From Candidatus Hodarchaeaceae archaeon (GTDB lineage: Archaea; Hadarchaeota; Hadarchaeia; Hadarchaeales; Hadarchaeaceae), in contig JASEGJ010000023.1 of assembly GCA_030018135.1 (NCBI GenBank), positions 1-16,545 on the forward strand: a DNA stretch of 16,545 nucleotides, given 5' to 3'. This document shows positions 619-15,407 of the stretch, one piece after another; positions within the stretch are counted from its first letter, which is position 1, and each line of letters opens with the position of its first letter. The notes below the pieces were generated by a model. The model did not search any database. It saw nothing but the letters and a program-made list of their open reading frames with translations, and was not told the DNA's origin. Position numbers and translations under genes: made by a program.

Positions 619-1569
619 TTAAGACTCGACCAGCACTTTACACTCCTCCGGTGCCTTGTCAAACCTAAGCCTCTTGAAGCTAGGCGCGCGGAACTTGAGG
701 GCTGGCGTCAGATCCATGTATTTGACCTCGCACACCAGCTCGGGCTTCACCCACTTCACCTCGTAAGGCGGCTCAGCATCCACTGGTTTGACATCGGTCA
801 CCCTATCGCTCAGCAACGAGGTGAGCAACTTAAGCAGGTGCTCATCAAAGCCCGTACCTACCTTCCCCATAAATTCGAGCTTGCCCTCACGATAAGCACC
901 CAGCACCAGCGCGCCAAAGTGCCCCTTGCGCCATCCCTCACCCGGCGTATAGCCGACGATGACGCAATCCATCGTTTTAATGCCCTTGAACTTCAGCCAG
1001 TCGCGGCTCCGCTTGCCGATCTGATAGGTGCTCTGTCTTCGCTTCGCCATCGCGCCTTCTAGGCCAAGCTTGATCGCCTCCTCGAAGAAGCGCCTGCCAT
1101 GAGTTTCGACGTAATGCGACAACAGGATGCGCGGGCTCTCGGTGACTACCTCTTCCAGCTTGGCCCGCCTCTGCTCGAGGGGTAGCCCCACTAGCGGCTC
1201 ACCGTTTAAGTAGAGCAAGTCAAACGCGACGAAGGTGGCTGGCATCGTCTGCGAGAGGAGCTCAATCCTCAACTCATCTCCGACGTGTTCGCGGGTTTGC
1301 AACAGCTTGAAATTCGGCCTGCCCTCCCTCAGCACGACGATTTCTCCATCCAAGATGGCTTCATTCGCATCGACATCGTCCCTCAGCGTGAGTTCGGGGT
1401 AACGGCTCGTGATGTTGAGCAGCCGACGATTTTGCAGCCTTAGCTTCTCGCTCACGAAAGCGAGGGTGCGGCTCCCGTCCCACTTCACCTCGAACCAAAA
1501 ATCTTCAGAGTCGAATGGATCAGCGATGTGGGCCAACATTGGCCTGATCTTGCGACCCATCCAGCTCAA
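619..1569 (-). CDS. ligD: ATP-dependent DNA ligase, LigD ligase-domain type
   Basis: A 316-residue protein consisting only of the ligase domain of LigD: an adenylation domain then an OB fold. It would seal double-strand breaks in end joining with Ku. Motif I is EVKWDGSR with the adenylated lysine K29. LDGEIV (E76), FVAFDLLYLNG (about 113-123), LEGAMAK (170-176) and DWLKFK (190-195) follow. The OB fold starts near residue 201 (CVIVGYTPGEG) and ends with KFRAPSFKRLRFDK. There is no polymerase or phosphoesterase domain, unlike full bacterial LigD, so those activities, if present, are encoded elsewhere. The TTG start at 1569 lies 10 bases after the Ku stop; ATG at 1560 is an alternative giving MGRKIRPML. 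Neither has a strong ribosome site, so coupled translation with Ku is likely. Confidence 0.9.
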   Translation of the reverse strand: MSWMGRKIRPMLAHIADPFDSEDFWFEVKWDGSRTLAFVSEKLRLQNRRLLNITSRYPELTLRDDVDANEAILDGEIVVLREGRPNFKLLQTREHVGDELRIELLSQTMPATFVAFDLLYLNGEPLVGLPLEQRRAKLEEVVTESPRILLSHYVETHGRRFFEEAIKLGLEGAMAKRRQSTYQIGKRSRDWLKFKGIKTMDCVIVGYTPGEGWRKGHFGALVLGAYREGKLEFMGKVGTGFDEHLLKLLTSLLSDRVTDVKPVDAEPPYEVKWVKPELVCEVKYMDLTPALKFRAPSFKRLRFDKAPEECKVLVES

Positions 1570-1579
1570 GGGATCGCCC

Positions 1580-2377
1580 TTAAGTTGCAGAAGCTGGTTT
1601 CTGCTCTTTCTTGACCGCCTGCACGCTCGCCTGTAGCGCCTTCATCAAATCCACCGTCGCGGCGACCTCGACTGGCTTGGCGGCGGGAACCTCGATCCCC
1701 TCGGCCTTCTGCCTGATGAGCTGCATTACAGCTTGGCGATAGCTGTCTACGTATTCCTCCGGCTTAAACTCGCCGCCCATGTGCTCTATCAGTACCTTGG
1801 CTAGATCGAGTTCATTCCCTCGCACCGCCGCAGGCTTCTCCAGCCCCTCGATTTTATCGATGTCGATCACTTCGCTGGGATAGTGCAGCGTAGTCATCAC
1901 CAATGCCTTTTGGTAGGGCCTCACCGCAATCACATGCTCCTTGTTGTGGATCACCACCTTGCCTACCGCTACCTTGTTCGTCAGCGCTAGGACATCGCGG
2001 AGTAATGAGTAGGCCTTCTCGCCCCCCTCGTCTGGCGCGAGGTAATAGTGCGTGCTGAAGTAAATTGAGTCGATGGTGGCGGAATCCACGAATTTTTGAA
2101 CATCTATGTTCTTGACGGTCTTTAGCTGTAGCCCTTCAAGCTCCTCTTTTTTGAGCGCGATGAATTTATCCTTCGTTATGGGGTATCCTCTATCGATCTC
2201 GGCCCACCCGACCTCTCTCCCGCAGGCCGGGCACCAGCGCTGGTACTTGAGCGGTGTATGACACTCGCTATGGAGCATCTTAAATGAGATCGTGCGATCC
2301 CTCGTCGCCGCGTACGCTTTGACCGGTATGTTCACCAATCCAAATACTAAACTGCCTCTCCAAATCGCACGGGGCAT
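1580..2377 (-). CDS. ku: Ku protein, bacterial-type NHEJ end-binding
   Basis: A 265-residue homodimeric-type Ku of the usual length for bacterial Ku. Ku rings thread onto DNA ends and recruit LigD. The N-terminus MPRAIWRGSLVFGLVNIPVK is the hallmark of prokaryotic Ku, followed by the Ku core (residues about 10-190, with SFKMLH and LRPY/AVRPYQKAL-type segments). C39, H40, C49 and C52 (CH...CPAC) form a zinc-ribbon-like cluster near the N-terminus. The C-terminal segment VDLMKALQASVQAVKK (about 242-257) matches the conserved tail implicated in LigD recruitment in bacteria. The gene is first in a two-gene operon with the ligase. It begins at ATG 2377 with no obvious ribosome site, consistent with a short-leader archaeal transcript. 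Confidence 0.95.
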   Translation of the reverse strand: MPRAIWRGSLVFGLVNIPVKAYAATRDRTISFKMLHSECHTPLKYQRWCPACGREVGWAEIDRGYPITKDKFIALKKEELEGLQLKTVKNIDVQKFVDSATIDSIYFSTHYYLAPDEGGEKAYSLLRDVLALTNKVAVGKVVIHNKEHVIAVRPYQKALVMTTLHYPSEVIDIDKIEGLEKPAAVRGNELDLAKVLIEHMGGEFKPEEYVDSYRQAVMQLIRQKAEGIEVPAAKPVEVAATVDLMKALQASVQAVKKEQKPASAT

Positions 2378-6982: not shown

Positions 6983-8236
6983 ATGGCAGCAGAAAGCATG
7001 AAGCGCTACCAATTCAGGCGCCTGCTCGACGAGCTGGCGAGCAAGCGCGGGCGGGGCACGGAACTCATCTCGGTTTACATTACCCCAGATTTTGACCTCA
7101 GCAAGGTGGTGCAGCAACTGCGGGACGAGCAGGGCACTGCCGCGAACATCAAGTCCAAAAGTACGCGCAAAAACGTCATTGGGGCGCTTGAGAAGATAAT
7201 CCAATTTCTGCGCACGTACATAGATGTCAATAGGCGTCCCCCGCCAAACGGCATGGCAATATTTTGTGGCAACGTAGCTGGGCGGGAGGATGTCGCTGAT
7301 ATCCAGCTTTATTGGATCGAGCCCCCCGAACCCGTAACCGTGCGGATGTATCGCTGCGACCAAGAGTTCGTGCTTGAGCCGCTTCGAGAGATGCTTCAAA
7401 TCAAAGAAACGATCGGCCTTTTGGTTCTCGATCGCCGCGAGGCAACACTTGCCACGCTGCGGGGTAAGCATGTGGACATCATCCGTACCATGACATCCGG
7501 CGTGCCCGGGAAGCATCGCCACGGCGGTCAGTCCGCGCGGCGCTTCGAACGTTTAATAGAAATAGCCGCGTACGAGTTCATAAAGCGAATTGCAGAGTCG
7601 ACGAACGAGATTTTCTCCCAAATTCCTGACCTGCGCGCCGTGTTGATCGGCGGCCCAGGCCCAATCAAAGAGGAGTTTCTCAGGAGTGAGTTATTGCGCG
7701 ATGATATCAGGAAAAAGGTCGTTGGGCTAATCGATACGGGATATACGGATGAGCAGGGTATAAAGGAACTGGTCAACAAATCTGGCGAGCTCCTGACAGA
7801 TCTTGATATAACAAAGGAAAAGTCGCTCGTGCAACGCTTCATGTCCGAGCTCGTGGCTGGCGGCGGATTGGTAGCGTACGGCGAGCTAGAGGTCAGGCGC
7901 TTCCTAGAACAAGGCGCGGTCGAATTGCTTTTAATCTCCGAGGCGCTGCGTCGCCACCGCACCTTGGCGCGATGTCAAGCATGTGGGAATGAGCTAAGGG
8001 AAACAGTCGAAGACATCGAGATTTATAGGCGACAGCTAGTAGGGCGTCGATGCCCGAGATGTGGCGAAGCCAAACTTGAACTTGCTGAAAGCAAGGATAT
8101 GGTCCAAGAACTCTGCGAGATCGCGGATGAGTTCGGCACCAACGTCGAGTTCATCTCCACCGAGACCGAGGAGGGCAAGCAACTATGGTCGGCGTTCAAG
8201 GGCCTGGCGGCGATATTGCGCTTTAGGGCCGGTTAA
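6983..8236 (+). CDS. prf1: Peptide chain release factor aRF1
   Basis: A 417-residue archaeal class I release factor that recognises all three stop codons in the ribosomal A site and triggers peptide release. Domain 1 carries the NIKS motif (55-58, AANIKSKSTRKN). Domain 2 carries the GGQ motif (181-183, PGKHRHGGQSARRFERL). Domain 3 holds an intact zinc motif with C331/C334 and C357/C360. It ends AAILRFRAG, as expected for the family. ATG 6983 follows the likely transcript start by about 10 bases; the internal ATG 6998 (MKRYQFRRLLDEL) matches the start of many homologues and is an equally good alternative. The 3' end overlaps the convergent HAD gene by 54 bases. Confidence 0.95.
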   Translation: MAAESMKRYQFRRLLDELASKRGRGTELISVYITPDFDLSKVVQQLRDEQGTAANIKSKSTRKNVIGALEKIIQFLRTYIDVNRRPPPNGMAIFCGNVAGREDVADIQLYWIEPPEPVTVRMYRCDQEFVLEPLREMLQIKETIGLLVLDRREATLATLRGKHVDIIRTMTSGVPGKHRHGGQSARRFERLIEIAAYEFIKRIAESTNEIFSQIPDLRAVLIGGPGPIKEEFLRSELLRDDIRKKVVGLIDTGYTDEQGIKELVNKSGELLTDLDITKEKSLVQRFMSELVAGGGLVAYGELEVRRFLEQGAVELLLISEALRRHRTLARCQACGNELRETVEDIEIYRRQLVGRRCPRCGEAKLELAESKDMVQELCEIADEFGTNVEFISTETEEGKQLWSAFKGLAAILRFRAG

Positions 8237-8893
8237 GCCGAATAGGGCCGGCAACTCTACCACGCTTTTAATAACGGCGTCTGGGGCCGCCCTCACAAGG
8301 CTCTCTTGGTCGGAGGATCCCGATAAAACCGCCACTGCTTTTAGGCCCAAGCCCTTGGCCGACTCCATATCTGCAACGTAGTCCGCAACTAAGACTGATT
8401 TTTGAGGATTTACTTTTAACATCTCGAGTACCTGAATTATCTCCAGGGAACGGGAAAAGAGTTCTGCGGGTTTGAGCTGGGCCAGCACCAGTTTTTTCGT
8501 CACAATCGCGTCTATTAAGTCGCCCAGCCCTCGTTCGCGCAGTTCGGCGAGAACATCTTCTGGTTCGCACAGCCGACCAGTTACCAGCCCAATTTTAGTC
8601 CCACCCTCCCTTAAGATCTTTATCGCTTCGCGGGTGCCGGGAAAGGCATTTGAGAACTTTTCGTGGGCGCCGCTGTACGAGTTGAGAAATGTGATCCAGA
8701 ATTTATGTTTGTCCTCGAGTTCGACGAGGTCATCAAGCTGATTTGCCCTGAATTTTTTCATGAATAGCTCCTTTTCGACGGGCGGAAGACGGTATGCCTT
8801 CAGCGTGTCGAGAAAAACGCGATAAAAGCGCTCCTCCACACTAACGAGCGTGCCATCTAGGTCGAAAATTACAGCTTCGATGTCTTTAAACAA
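8183..8893 (-). CDS. HAD-superfamily phosphatase, phosphoglycolate phosphatase-like
   Basis: A 236-residue HAD hydrolase with a helical C1 cap. Motif I is FDLDGTL (nucleophile D11, acid D13), motif II is GLVTGR (T105), motif III is K141 in LKPAELF, and motif IV is VLVADYVADM (D171, D175), where the usual G of VGD is replaced by A. The substrate cannot be read from sequence. The TTG start at 8893 follows AGGTGGGAGA directly upstream, 8 bases after the stop of the hydrolase gene, so this is the last gene of the four-gene operon. The expected fold ends near residue 218 (VVELPALFGL); the last 17 residues (TGPKAQYRRQALERRP and neighbours) are read antisense through the end of the aRF1 gene, probably after loss of an earlier stop. 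Confidence 0.85.
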   Translation of the reverse strand: MFKDIEAVIFDLDGTLVSVEERFYRVFLDTLKAYRLPPVEKELFMKKFRANQLDDLVELEDKHKFWITFLNSYSGAHEKFSNAFPGTREAIKILREGGTKIGLVTGRLCEPEDVLAELRERGLGDLIDAIVTKKLVLAQLKPAELFSRSLEIIQVLEMLKVNPQKSVLVADYVADMESAKGLGLKAVAVLSGSSDQESLVRAAPDAVIKSVVELPALFGLTGPKAQYRRQALERRP

Positions 8894-8901
8894 TCTCCCA
8901 C

Positions 8902-10161
8902 CTATGTGCCCAGTCGCCAGGACTTCAGATATCTTACCTGTTCGGGCCTAAGTTTTTCTAACTCAACTTTTAGCGACCTAAGCTTAAGTTCTGCCACCTT
9001 ACGGTCGATTTCGTTGGGCACATCGTAGACCCTGTTCTCGAGTTCCCTTCCATGTTTTGCCAAGTATTCAACGCTTAACGCCTGCAACGAGAAGCTCATA
9101 TCCATTATCTCGATTGGGTGTCCAAGCGATCTCCTGCCTGCTAAATTGACCAGCCGACCCTCCGCGAGCAGGTAGAGGCGCCTACCGTCCTTGAGCTGGA
9201 ATTCCTCGATGTCATCGAGCATCCTATGCCGCTTCACTGCGAGTTCAGATAATCCTTTGAGGTCTATTTCAACGTTAAAGTGACCGGCATTACAAAGGAT
9301 TGCGCCATCGTGCATGAGTCGCATGTGCTCCCTTCGAATGACATTTAGATTGCCGGTTGCAGTTATGAAGATGTCGCCAACCCGCGCGGCATCCGCCATT
9401 GGCATGACTCTAAAGCCGTCCATTACGGCCTCGAGCGCCTTGACCGCATCGCTTTCAACGACCGTGACTATTGCACCCATCCCCTTCGCGCGCGAGGATA
9501 TCCCCCGGCCGACGAACCCGTAACCGACCACGACGACATTTTTGCCTGCTATCAGGATGTTCGTGATGCCCATGATCGCCTGCAGCGTTGACTCCGCGGT
9601 GCCAAAGCGGTTATCAAACAGCCGCTTGGTCGGCGAGTCGTTCACGGCAATGACCGGAAATCTCAGCGTGCCACCGGTTGCCATCGCCCGTAGCCTGTTG
9701 ACGCCGGTTGTGGTCTCCTCGGATGCTCCCCGGATGAGGGGGATGAGTTCCGGGTACTTGGTATGGGCGAGCGAGATCAAATCGGCGCCATCGTCTATGA
9801 GCACATTTGGCTTATTCCTAAGAACTCGACCAAGGTTCGCGTAGTATTCTGCCTCGCTTTCGCCCCTCCACGCGTATACATTGGCACCATCCTCAGCTAG
9901 GGCAGCTGCGACCTCATCCCGCGTGGATAGCGGATTGCAGCTCGTTATCGCGACCCTCGCGCCAGCTGCCATAAGCGCGCGAACTAGCGCGGCGGTTTTT
10001 GCCTCCACATGCAGCGCCGCTCCAACGACCAAGCCCTCGAGGTCCCTTGTTTTGGATAGCTCGCGACGGACGGTCATGAGCACTGGCATGTGGCGCTCCG
10101 CCCATTCTATCATCCGCCTGCCCTCGGGCGCCAGCTTGATGTCCTTGACTTCATACTTCAT
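8902..10161 (-). CDS. ahcY: S-adenosylhomocysteinase family; probable S-inosylhomocysteine hydrolase
   Basis: A 419-residue NAD-dependent enzyme that splits SAH, or its deaminated form SIH, to homocysteine and a nucleoside. Catalytic residues are visible: D124 (LIDDGADL), E148/E149 (GASEETTTGVNR), N174, K179, D183 and N184 (NDSPTKRLFDNRFG), and H294 (NAGHFNVEID). The Rossmann loop is VVGYGFVGRG (212-220). It is the shorter archaeal/Thermotoga form ending YLKSWRLGT. The base-pocket motif is H51-V-E53-A-K55, HxExK, where adenosine-specific enzymes have HxTxE/Q; to my recollection HxExK has been tied to inosine-type substrates. The ATG at 10161 has GGGAGG 7 bases upstream and overlaps the stop of the deaminase gene as ATGA. 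A GTG at 10179 is less likely. Confidence 0.93.
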   Translation of the reverse strand: MKYEVKDIKLAPEGRRMIEWAERHMPVLMTVRRELSKTRDLEGLVVGAALHVEAKTAALVRALMAAGARVAITSCNPLSTRDEVAAALAEDGANVYAWRGESEAEYYANLGRVLRNKPNVLIDDGADLISLAHTKYPELIPLIRGASEETTTGVNRLRAMATGGTLRFPVIAVNDSPTKRLFDNRFGTAESTLQAIMGITNILIAGKNVVVVGYGFVGRGISSRAKGMGAIVTVVESDAVKALEAVMDGFRVMPMADAARVGDIFITATGNLNVIRREHMRLMHDGAILCNAGHFNVEIDLKGLSELAVKRHRMLDDIEEFQLKDGRRLYLLAEGRLVNLAGRRSLGHPIEIMDMSFSLQALSVEYLAKHGRELENRVYDVPNEIDRKVAELKLRSLKVELEKLRPEQVRYLKSWRLGT

Positions 10162-11468
10162 CTTATGGCCTCCCAGCACGCGAGCAGACCGCCGGAAGCC
10201 TTTTGTGCCTCTTCGAGGACCTTATCTTCATCGACCGTCAAAACCTCGCGCTCTCGCATCACGACCTCGCCGTCCACGATGACGGTGTCGACGTCGCTTC
10301 CGACCGCGTTATACACTAGATGCGAAACTACGTTGTACAGGGGTACGAAGTGGGGTTTCTTGAGGTCGACCAGTAAAACGTCCGCCTTTTTTCCGACCTC
10401 GAGCGAGCCTATCTCATCCTGCAGGCCCAAGGCGATTGCCCCGTTGATCGTCGCCATCTCAAGCACCGCTTGCGCCGGTACTGCGGTTGGATCGAGCTTA
10501 TGGACCTTGTTGAGCAGCGCCGCGAACTTCATCTCGTTGAACATGTCAAGCGCGTTGTTGGATGCCGCCCCGTCCGTGCCCAACGCGACCGGTATGCCGG
10601 CGGCGAGCATCTCCGGCACCGGCGCCACGCCGGAGGCGGTTTTCATGTTGCTTACCGGACTGTGGACGGGCTTGACGCCGCGCTCGCGGAGGATCGAAAT
10701 TTCTTGCTCGGTTAACCACACGCAGTGCGCGGCCAGTACCTCTGGACCGAGGAAGCCGATCGCATCGAGATGCTCGACCGGCCGCCTGCCGTACTTTTTG
10801 GTGACGCGTTCGACTTCATCTTGGCTCTCCGAGATGTGGGTGTGTATGCCCACCTTGTACTTTTTCGCCAGCTCCTTCACCTGCATCAGGCACTCGGGCG
10901 AACATGTATACGATGCGTGCGGCCCAAACATCGTTAGAATTCGACCATTGGCGGTCCCATGGCACTCCTTCACAAGCTTTTCACCGGCTTGCAGCTCAGA
11001 TTTTCGCCTCTCCGGATCGTCCCTTTCAATTATGCCGTAAGAAAGCACGCCCCGTATGCCAGCCTCTTCAACCGCGTTCGCCACATCCTTCATGAAAAAA
11101 TATTGATCCGCGAAGCACGTCGTGCCGGATTTGATCATCTCCAAGCAACCAAGCATGGCGCCAGCGTAGCAGTCCTGCCCTTTGAGGTTCCGCTCTATCG
11201 GCCAGATCTTATTTTCCAGCCATTCCATGAGGGGCATGTCGTCGGCCACGCCTCGCAGCAAGGTCATCGAAAGATGGGTATGGGCGTTGATGGTGCCCGG
11301 CAGGACGGCCTTGCCGCTGGCATCGATTACAACATCGGCTCGTTCGCGAACCTCCTTGCCCACGGCGCTGATCCTGTCGCCCTCTATGGCCACCGAGCCC
11401 AGTTTGAAGACCCTGCGTTGGGCATCCATGGTAATTATGTAGCCATCCCTAAGAAGAATATCCGCCAA
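10158..11468 (-). CDS. mtaD: Amidohydrolase deaminase, MtaD/DadD type (5'-deoxyadenosine, MTA or SAH deaminase)
   Basis: A 436-residue amidohydrolase of the COG0402 type, close to the family's usual length. Metal and catalytic residues are visible: H63 and H65 (NAHTHLSMTLLRG), H211 and E214 (GIHTHISES), H248 (LAAHCVWL) and D299 (ALGTDGAASNN). SGTTCFADQY and GPHASYTCS are also typical of the SAH/MTA/5'-deoxyadenosine deaminases. These convert the adenine base to hypoxanthine while attached, for example SAH to S-inosylhomocysteine. The TTG start at 11468 is supported by GAGGGG five bases upstream. It lies 10 bases after the DJ-1 gene and overlaps the downstream hydrolase gene by 4 bases, suggesting product hand-off between the two enzymes. 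Which adenosine derivative is preferred is not decided by sequence. Confidence 0.88.
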   Translation of the reverse strand: MADILLRDGYIITMDAQRRVFKLGSVAIEGDRISAVGKEVRERADVVIDASGKAVLPGTINAHTHLSMTLLRGVADDMPLMEWLENKIWPIERNLKGQDCYAGAMLGCLEMIKSGTTCFADQYFFMKDVANAVEEAGIRGVLSYGIIERDDPERRKSELQAGEKLVKECHGTANGRILTMFGPHASYTCSPECLMQVKELAKKYKVGIHTHISESQDEVERVTKKYGRRPVEHLDAIGFLGPEVLAAHCVWLTEQEISILRERGVKPVHSPVSNMKTASGVAPVPEMLAAGIPVALGTDGAASNNALDMFNEMKFAALLNKVHKLDPTAVPAQAVLEMATINGAIALGLQDEIGSLEVGKKADVLLVDLKKPHFVPLYNVVSHLVYNAVGSDVDTVIVDGEVVMREREVLTVDEDKVLEEAQKASGGLLACWEAIR

Positions 11469-11478
11469 ATCATCCCCT

Positions 11479-11994
11479 CTAGCGTCCGAGTGCCTTGGCT
11501 ATGGCGCGCCCGAACTCAGTTGCAGCCTTTGGCCCGTTTGCGGTGATGATGTTTCCATCGACCTCCACCGACCTCCCGGTGTATCTCGCGCCCTTGGCCT
11601 CGATCATCTCCACGTAATCGCCGTCCCACACCGTCGCGCGCTTGCCCTCGAGCACCCCGGCGTTTGCCAGAATGACCGGTGCTATGCAGATGGCGCAGAC
11701 CTTCTTGCCCCTTCTTGAGGCCTCCTTGGCTATCGAGATCGCTCGGCCGTCGTTGAAGTAGGTCGCTGCCCCGCTACCCCCGACGAAAATCACTGCGTCG
11801 TAGTTATCGACCTTTACTTTGTCGAGCTCGATATTCGGGCGCACCGTCGTCCCGAACATGCCCCGCGCCGTCGTCCTCGTGCTCGCCACGGTTACGCTAA
11901 CTCCGGCATTCTGCAGCACCTGCTTGGGCTCCTTGAACTCCTCGTCCCTGAAATTCTCGGGCGCTATCACCATCAACACGCGCTTTTCCGTCAA
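11479..11994 (-). CDS. DJ-1/PfpI family protein
   Basis: A 171-residue protein of the DJ-1/PfpI (class I amidotransferase-like) family, of normal single-domain length. The nucleophile elbow is CAIC-I-AP with the probable reactive C103 (another cysteine at C100); the residue after the nucleophile is Ile, where classical PfpI proteases have His. A conserved acidic segment FRDEEF lies near residue 15-20, and DAVIFVGGSGAATY is the second family loop. Members act as glyoxalases/deglycases, chaperones or proteases; the role here is unknown. The start was placed at TTG 11994 because GGAGGTG lies 6 bases upstream and it yields a normal N-terminus (MTEKRVLMVIAPENF). GTG 12015 would add seven residues that encode the ribosome site itself. 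It is the first gene of the operon running to the HAD gene. Confidence 0.85.
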   Translation of the reverse strand: MTEKRVLMVIAPENFRDEEFKEPKQVLQNAGVSVTVASTRTTARGMFGTTVRPNIELDKVKVDNYDAVIFVGGSGAATYFNDGRAISIAKEASRRGKKVCAICIAPVILANAGVLEGKRATVWDGDYVEMIEAKGARYTGRSVEVDGNIITANGPKAATEFGRAIAKALGR

Positions 11995-12038
11995 GTTTGG
12001 CACCTCCTCATCCACCTCTCAACACCTATTAACACATG

Positions 12039-13391: not shown

Positions 13392-15407
13392 TTGGTCGAA
13401 AAGTTCCTCGTAACCGCGGCCTTGCCCTACGCAAGCGGTCCAAGGCATATCGGCCACGCGGCGGGCGTCTACATCCCCGCGGATATCTACGCAAGATACA
13501 ACAGGATGAAGGGCAACGATGTCGTCTTCATCTGCGGCACGGATGAGCACGGCACGCCGATCACCGTGCAAGCGATCCAAGAGGGCGTTAAACCGATAGA
13601 CATCGCCGACCGCTACCACAAGGTAATAAAGGAATCGTTTGACAGGCTCGGCTTTTCGTTCGACAATTTCTCGCGCACAACTCGTGAAATCCACTACCGC
13701 CTGGCTCAGGATTTCTTTCTGACGCTCTACAAGAAGGGCTACATTTACGAGAGGCGGATGAAGTTGCTCTATTGCCCAAATTGTAAAAGATTCCTACCCG
13801 ATAGGTACGTCGAGGGCATCTGCCCGCATTGCGGCTCGGAGGGTGCCCGGGGCGACCAGTGCGACGCTTGTGGTCGAGTTTTGAACACCGTGGATCTAAT
13901 CCATCCACACTGCACCATCTGCGGTACCCCGCCGACCACGCGGGAGAGCACGCAGTGGTTCTTCAAGCTAAGCGCCTTCGAGGGGGCAATCAAGAACATG
14001 CTCGAGGAGAGCCGCCACTGGCCCGACAACGTACGCAACTTCTGCCTGCAGCTGATCGAGAAGGAGGGCCTTAAGGACCGCGATATCACGCGCGATATGG
14101 AGTGGGGTATCCCCGTGCCGCTGCCCGAGGCCAAGGGCAAGGTGCTTTACGTTTGGTTCGATGCCCCCATAGGCTATATTTCGGCAACTAAAGAATGGGC
14201 TCAGCAAATCGGACAGCCGGAGAGATGGCGGGAATATTGGCAAGGCAACGTAAAGATCGTGCATTTCCTCGCGAAGGACAACATCCCATTTCACGCGCTC
14301 ATCTGGCCGGCGATGCTCATGGCGTACGGTGATTTCAACCTGCCATGGATGATTCCGGCTTATGAGCACCTCAACCTAGAGGGGCGAAAGATGTCGACGA
14401 GCCGCGGCTGGGTGGTGGAGCTCAACGACTTCCTCGATGAGTTCGATCCGGATATGCTCCGCTATTACCTGACCATCAACGCCCCCCAGAGGCGGGACGT
14501 CGATTTCTATTGGAAGGAGTTCCAGCGCCGGGTCAACGATGAATTGGCGGACATCATCGGTAACCTTATCCACCGCACGCTCTCCTTCATCTACAACAAT
14601 TTCGATGGCAAAATCCCGACGCCGAGCGAGTTCGACGAGCAGGACAAGGAGATGATACGCTTGATCAAGGGGGCGCCGCTGACCGTTGGAAAACACATCG
14701 AGGAATTTAACTCCAGCGCTGGTCTCAAGGAGGTTATAAAATTGGCGAGATTTGGCAACAAATACTTCAATGATAAGCAGCCCTGGCGCACCCTTAAGGA
14801 GGACCCGAAGAAGTGTGCGACAACTCTTTACATCTGCGCACAGCTTGCAAGGTCGCTCGCGATCCTCCTTGCCCCCTACCTGCCGTTCGCGAGTCAAGGG
14901 CTTTGGAAATCGCTAAACTTGCGGGGCGATATACACAGGCAACGCTGGGAGGCAGCAGTCGAATTAGGCCTTAAGCCCGGCCAGCACATCAACAAACCTG
15001 AGCCACTGTTCACAAAGCTCTCGGACGAGGTCATAAAAAAACAGGAGGGGAAACTTCAGGCCCTCTTGAAATTTCAGGCACCAAGCGTGGTATCGGAGCA
15101 GGACTTTGCCAAGCTCGACATCCGCGTGGGCAAAATCGTGAGAGCCGAGCCGGTTCCGAAGTCGAAGAAGCTTCTAAAGCTCTCGGTCGATATCTCCGGA
15201 AAGCGGCGCACCATCGTCGCCGGGCTTGCCCAGCATTACTCGCCGAAGGAGCTCGTCGGGAAAGAAGTGGCAGTCGTCGTGAATTTAAAACCCGTGCAAA
15301 TAATGGGCATCAGATCGGAGGGCATGCTGCTGGCGGCTGAAGACGAGAAGGGCCCCTCCATCCTGACTACGGACAGGCCGGTGAAAGCGGGCGCGAGGGT
15401 GAGGTGA
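13392..15407 (+). CDS. metG: Methionyl-tRNA synthetase with fused tRNA-binding domain
   Basis: A 671-residue class I synthetase that charges initiator and elongator tRNA-Met. HIGH is at 19-22 (ASGPRHIGHAAG), followed by CGTDEHGTPI. The connective peptide has four Cys pairs (C128/C131, C144/C147, C157/C160, C174/C177), the two-zinc type. The KMSKS loop reads KMSTS (333-337), followed by RGW as in many archaeal enzymes. An anticodon-binding helical domain follows. Residues 572-671 (LDIRVGKIVRAEPVPKSKKL; GIRSEGMLLAA) are an EMAPII/Trbp111-like OB-fold tRNA-binding domain, which in several archaea is a separate protein. The start is TTG 13392, giving MVEKFLVTAALPYASG, which is the normal N-terminus. 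The stop overlaps the next gene region (GGTGAGGTGA). Confidence 0.96.
   Translation: MVEKFLVTAALPYASGPRHIGHAAGVYIPADIYARYNRMKGNDVVFICGTDEHGTPITVQAIQEGVKPIDIADRYHKVIKESFDRLGFSFDNFSRTTREIHYRLAQDFFLTLYKKGYIYERRMKLLYCPNCKRFLPDRYVEGICPHCGSEGARGDQCDACGRVLNTVDLIHPHCTICGTPPTTRESTQWFFKLSAFEGAIKNMLEESRHWPDNVRNFCLQLIEKEGLKDRDITRDMEWGIPVPLPEAKGKVLYVWFDAPIGYISATKEWAQQIGQPERWREYWQGNVKIVHFLAKDNIPFHALIWPAMLMAYGDFNLPWMIPAYEHLNLEGRKMSTSRGWVVELNDFLDEFDPDMLRYYLTINAPQRRDVDFYWKEFQRRVNDELADIIGNLIHRTLSFIYNNFDGKIPTPSEFDEQDKEMIRLIKGAPLTVGKHIEEFNSSAGLKEVIKLARFGNKYFNDKQPWRTLKEDPKKCATTLYICAQLARSLAILLAPYLPFASQGLWKSLNLRGDIHRQRWEAAVELGLKPGQHINKPEPLFTKLSDEVIKKQEGKLQALLKFQAPSVVSEQDFAKLDIRVGKIVRAEPVPKSKKLLKLSVDISGKRRTIVAGLAQHYSPKELVGKEVAVVVNLKPVQIMGIRSEGMLLAAEDEKGPSILTTDRPVKAGARVR

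Follow-up and report, generated by a model that had tools for sequence, protein, structure and literature searches.

A conserved deaminase and HxExK hydrolase gene pair in an uncultured hadarchaeon: a probable operon for SAH recycling through S-inosylhomocysteine

Two overlapping genes, one for an amidohydrolase-family deaminase and one for a homologue of the SAH hydrolases, probably constitute a conserved two-enzyme operon for the S-inosylhomocysteine (SIH) route in uncultured archaea. The window, that is, the whole stretch of DNA that was analyzed, comprises 16,545 nucleotides of contig JASEGJ010000023.1. We consider it likely that the two enzymes work as a pair that recycles SAH by way of SIH. 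The genes would form a co-transcribed, translationally coupled module, in which a metal-dependent deaminase would turn SAH, and probably also MTA and 5'-deoxyadenosine, into the corresponding inosine compounds, and an NAD-dependent hydrolase, whose Glu53 would face N1 and whose Lys55 would face O6, would convert SIH to inosine and homocysteine. The homocysteine would then be returned to methionine and again to SAM, and the inosine would pass to purine salvage. Transcription as an operon, the substrate preferences of both enzymes and the flux through the route are the parts of this scheme that we infer.

Anatomy of the gene pair

The gene anatomy, the conservation of the overlap, the motif, the clade of the hydrolase and the presence of other pathway genes were observed directly. 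Both genes of the pair are intact (Table 1). The length of the hydrolase is counted from the ATG at 10161, and the same open frame contains an alternative start, GTG, at 10179. The deaminase reading frame starts with TTG and is preceded by GAGGGGATGAT.

Table 1. Features of the deaminase-hydrolase locus, in window coordinates
Feature	Position	Strand	Remarks
SAH-hydrolase homologue with HxExK motif, probable S-inosylhomocysteine hydrolase	8902..10161	-	419 aa, TIGR00936 592 bits
Base-binding motif H51-V-E53-A-K55 (HxExK)	9997..10011	-	Read from translation
Base-contact loop A341-G-R-R-S-L346	9124..9141	-	6 residues, not 4, before GHP
Amidohydrolase-family deaminase, DadD-like, probable SAH/MTA/5'-deoxyadenosine deaminase	10158..11468	-	436 aa
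ATGA, 4-base overlap of deaminase stop and hydrolase start	10158..10161	-	
DJ-1/PfpI-family gene, probable first gene of the operon	11479..12015	-	10 bp upstream of deaminase
HAD-family phosphatase	8183..8893	-	8 bp downstream of hydrolase; no conserved cluster member

A first-pass annotation of the locus had described a 4-base overlap of the two genes and an HxExK motif at H51, E53 and K55 of the hydrolase. Both were borne out: in the ATGA the start codon ATG of the hydrolase runs into the stop codon TGA of the deaminase (10160-10158), and the motif is present in the translation. The same annotation had warned that a plain adenosylhomocysteinase label would mislead, and this is likely so. NCBIfam gives the hydrolase exactly that name, 'adenosylhomocysteinase' (TIGR00936), and calls the deaminase 'N-ethylammeline chlorohydrolase' (NF004701, 620 bits against a cut-off of 609), so automatic annotation likely misleads on two genes, and both names are corrected here.

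Conservation of the overlap and of gene linkage

The phylum was sampled with 28 species, with genomes of about 1.1 Mb. In all 11 of the other genomes of the family in which the junction was read the 4-base overlap was kept, as ATGA in nine and as GTGA in two, and pfpI lay directly upstream of the pair in 10 of these 11. The HAD gene adjoined the pair only in the window and in genome G005 among the same 11 genomes and the window. The deaminase and hydrolase genes are also adjacent in G001, which of all the phylum members is the most distant one; in a sister family (f3) the hydrolase gene lies apart from that of the orthologous deaminase. The overlap within the family, the adjacency in the distant member and the separation in the sister family together suggest that the linkage is old and favored but not essential. 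Every hydrolase of the phylum with a readable motif has HxExK, and H51, E53 and K55 do not vary across the alignment of the phylum. Since the overlap is kept throughout the family genomes and the motif is found phylum-wide where readable, the pair and its motif are not due to chance. The fixed overlap in the family and the conserved pair are among the points added here to published work.

Over the tree, adjacency changed 10 times within the HxExK hydrolases and twice within the HxTxE hydrolases, in a sample that took in loci chosen for proximity; among the Halobacteriota, which were included without such selection, the genes were adjacent for 3 of 50 HxExK and 0 of 40 HxTxE hydrolases. Three Bathyarchaeota loci (L035, L036 and L041) have an HxTxE hydrolase 55-75 bp behind a deaminase; this deaminase is not the paralogue nearest to that of the window but another one. 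The first-pass annotation had suggested checking the motif across homologues next to the deaminase: HxExK was found throughout the phylum where readable, and these three loci departed from it. Because they pair HxTxE with a deaminase, gene linkage carries less weight than the first-pass annotation implied, operon linkage is ruled out as proof of the SIH route, and a deaminase beside an SAH hydrolase does not alone signify that route. The Bathyarchaeota with a linked HxTxE pair have DadD-like genes at other genomic sites as well.

Published work on the HxExK motif

Koeppl et al. (2024) assayed 18 hydrolases (PMC10978960). SIH was preferred by the HxExK enzymes of P. furiosus, T. kodakarensis, M. 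jannaschii, M. infernus, M. maripaludis and T. maritima, which retain some residual SAH activity, and SAH was preferred by HxTxE/Q enzymes; no characterized HxExK enzyme prefers SAH (PMC10978960). In the solved structures Glu replaces Thr at N1, Lys contacts O6, and main-chain carbonyls between RLVNL and GHP contact the 6-position of the base (PMC10978960). Hadesarchaea are listed among the groups with HxExK, and DadD homologues are reported only in Euryarchaeota and bacteria (PMC10978960). A 2026 review restates the motif rule and suggests that the transition took place once (PMC13406329).

The central idea of the first-pass annotation, an SIH route via deamination of SAH that is linked to this motif, was therefore largely right but not new: the route had already been demonstrated in other archaea, and the motif preference had been published (PMC10978960). 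Its structural argument, that E and K in place of T and E fit hypoxanthine, was broadly right and inexact in detail, as it is Thr at N1 that Glu replaces, with Lys at O6. Since published HxExK enzymes keep some SAH activity, the SIH route need not be exclusive. The main text of Koeppl et al. 2024 (PMC10978960) mentions neither an operon nor a loop insertion; in the window the deaminase is directly co-encoded with the hydrolase.

Phylogenetic and structural placement of the hydrolase

The window hydrolase matched the family models TIGR00936 (592 bits), PF05221 and PF00670. A single change separates HxExK from HxTxE in a tree of 215 hydrolases (support 98), and the same split was recovered when the motif and loop columns were left out (100-row IQ-TREE tree, 99 SH-aLRT). 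The window hydrolase lies on the HxExK side of this branch with the solved enzymes of P. furiosus, M. maripaludis and T. maritima, and the S. acidocaldarius enzyme lies on the other. Repeated independent origin of HxExK was not seen, the motif changing once on each of the two trees. The trees thus support one motif switch and place the window hydrolase with the SIH-preferring group. This placement, together with the published assays (PMC10978960), supports the earlier reading of the hydrolase as an SIH enzyme, and its prediction as the SIH-preferring type is well supported by homology.

The window hydrolase shares its family, fold, NAD domain, HxExK motif and side of the tree with the SIH hydrolases of M. 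jannaschii, M. maripaludis (7R3A), P. furiosus (7R37, 7R38) and T. maritima, and is about 54-56% identical to the P. furiosus and M. maripaludis enzymes by structure alignment. It shares fold and reaction chemistry with the canonical SAH hydrolases (HxTxE or HxTxQ; S. acidocaldarius, 7R39), but differs from them in the base motif, in loop length and in lying on the opposite side of a strongly supported branch. An AlphaFold model of the hydrolase had 7R37 as its nearest match (Z 64.8, rmsd 1.2 over 417), and the SAH-preferring 7R39 was close behind (Z 63.7); the model, in which residues 341-350 have a mean pLDDT of 81, confirms the fold only.

The family models, which say adenosylhomocysteinase, and the best PDB sequence match, which is to the SAH-specific S. 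acidocaldarius enzyme (501 bits vs 489 for that of P. furiosus), would both agree with an ordinary SAH hydrolase that stands by chance beside an unrelated amidohydrolase. We regard this as very improbable, as it is contradicted by the motif, by the placement with the SIH hydrolases in the tree and by the conserved overlap, and a preference for SAH is absent from the characterized HxExK enzymes (PMC10978960).

A six-residue loop near the base

Between RLVNL and GHP the window hydrolase has six residues, AGRRSL, and so lacks the 4-residue loop ending in Asp of the solved SIH hydrolases of P. furiosus, M. maripaludis and T. maritima; that form is a feature seen in solved members and not a published defining one. 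The six-residue form was found in 53 of 98 HxExK loci, a small number of them duplicates; the 112 HxTxE loci with a readable loop all have four residues. The longer loop occurs in the main order of the window's phylum, in many Halobacteriota and in one Micrarchaeota, its loci outside the window including some within L215-L254 (Halobacteriota) and L090. Multiple origins of the loop were considered and not adopted: the trees need two to three changes, and a single origin was not rejected (AU p 0.595).

The six-residue loop marks a subgroup and does not exclude membership in the SIH hydrolases. Since the window hydrolase falls in a subgroup outside the solved SIH structures found, its preference for the base is an extrapolation from that of its relatives. 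The variant is absent from solved structures and is pointed out here. It is conceivable, if on the unlikely side, that the hydrolases with this loop form a structurally distinct, unsolved subclass of SIH hydrolases, in which the longer loop would alter how the base 6-position is recognized; the residual SAH activity might, for example, be lost and deamination become obligatory.

The deaminase

An alignment with TM0936 showed that the metal and catalytic positions are kept in the window deaminase as H63, H65, H211, E214, H248 and D299; we take the matching TM0936 positions to have these catalytic roles. In addition, E92 corresponds to TM0936 E84, a Glu common to the solved MTA/SAH deaminases. 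The genome encodes four related deaminases, and only the one in the operon has this Glu; the others have Gln, Asp and Asp, and one of these three is clearly of the SsnA type. Arg136 and Arg148 of TM0936, presumably contacts of the homocysteine carboxylate of SAH, are Tyr144 and Lys156 in the window deaminase, at positions that vary among relatives and where the alignment is gappy. The curated cut-off of NF005557, '5'-deoxyadenosine deaminase', was not reached (466 bits vs 522).

The window deaminase thus has the amidohydrolase family, the metal and catalytic residues and the Glu at TM0936 E84 in common with the DadD and MTA/SAH deaminases (M. jannaschii DadD; TM0936, 1P1M/2PLM; 4F0R), and is unlike TM0936 in that Arg136 and Arg148 are not conserved. 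The residues are compatible with the SAH/MTA/5'-deoxyadenosine type to which the gene had been assigned, although SAH is inseparable from MTA or 5'-deoxyadenosine by sequence, and we designate the enzyme a probable DadD-like SAH/MTA/5'-deoxyadenosine deaminase. The published restriction of archaeal DadD homologues to Euryarchaeota (PMC10978960) was not upheld at the family level, as apparent relatives are found in Bathyarchaeota genomes.

The remainder of the cycle

The genome, which is 93% complete, contains one SAH-hydrolase homologue, an archaeal SAM synthetase, two MetE-type matches, one MTAP/MTIP-family phosphorylase and two further phosphorylase-family genes. With the hydrolase and these synthetase, MetE-type and phosphorylase genes present, a route from SAM through SAH, SIH and homocysteine to methionine can be closed on paper. 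An MTA/SAH nucleosidase-like gene with a hydrophobic N-terminus (L115, G000:C43:27104-27873) is present in the genome only as two overlapping frames, which may reflect a frameshift or an assembly error.

Co-occurrence of motif and deaminase

Presence of the deaminase in Halobacteriota was scored as a genome match at E 1e-60, and was found in the genomes of 49 of 50 HxExK and 29 of 40 HxTxE hydrolases, the latter being 28 of 40 at this threshold plus G129, whose match was split in two (Fisher p 0.0004, computed ignoring kinship). Among named genomes the deaminase was present in 6/6 with HxExK and in 21/39 others. HxExK therefore nearly always occurs with the deaminase, but the converse does not hold. 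Because the motif changed once on the tree, the counts are not many independent tests, and the association was downgraded as independent evidence. One HxExK hydrolase (L214) is in a genome (G106) without a clear DadD relative, which may reflect incompleteness or another source of SIH.

The many HxTxE genomes with a deaminase (21/39 and 29/40) indicate that the deaminase has other uses. They favor the main rival to the SIH-route pair, a pair in which the deaminase would mainly remove the MTA and 5'-deoxyadenosine that arise in polyamine and radical-SAM chemistry and the hydrolase would take SAH directly and SIH occasionally, co-expression serving general disposal of SAM by-products with no obligate SIH route. 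In M. jannaschii the homologue bears the name 5'-deoxyadenosine deaminase, and the tested HxExK enzymes all kept SAH activity (PMC10978960); the MTAP/MTIP-family phosphorylase is also in keeping with such a role. On its own, however, this explanation, which we think unlikely, leaves unexplained the near-constant company of HxExK and deaminase, the repeated linkage and the fixed overlap. Recycling through SIH remains the reading that we prefer, and what counts against it is Tyr144 and Lys156 at TM0936 Arg136 and Arg148, the residual SAH activity of HxExK enzymes (PMC10978960), the Bathyarchaeota linkage with HxTxE, the separation in the sister family and the unsolved loop.

Other features of the window

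The methionyl-tRNA synthetase gene (window 13392-15407) encodes a protein 82% identical to that of G005 and 34-36% identical to the product of the gene at the same place in other family genomes, and replacement or transfer of this gene is possible, judging from these identities. Genes for Ku and a LigD-type ligase are adjacent (window 619-2377), a bacterial-type end-joining pair in an archaeon.
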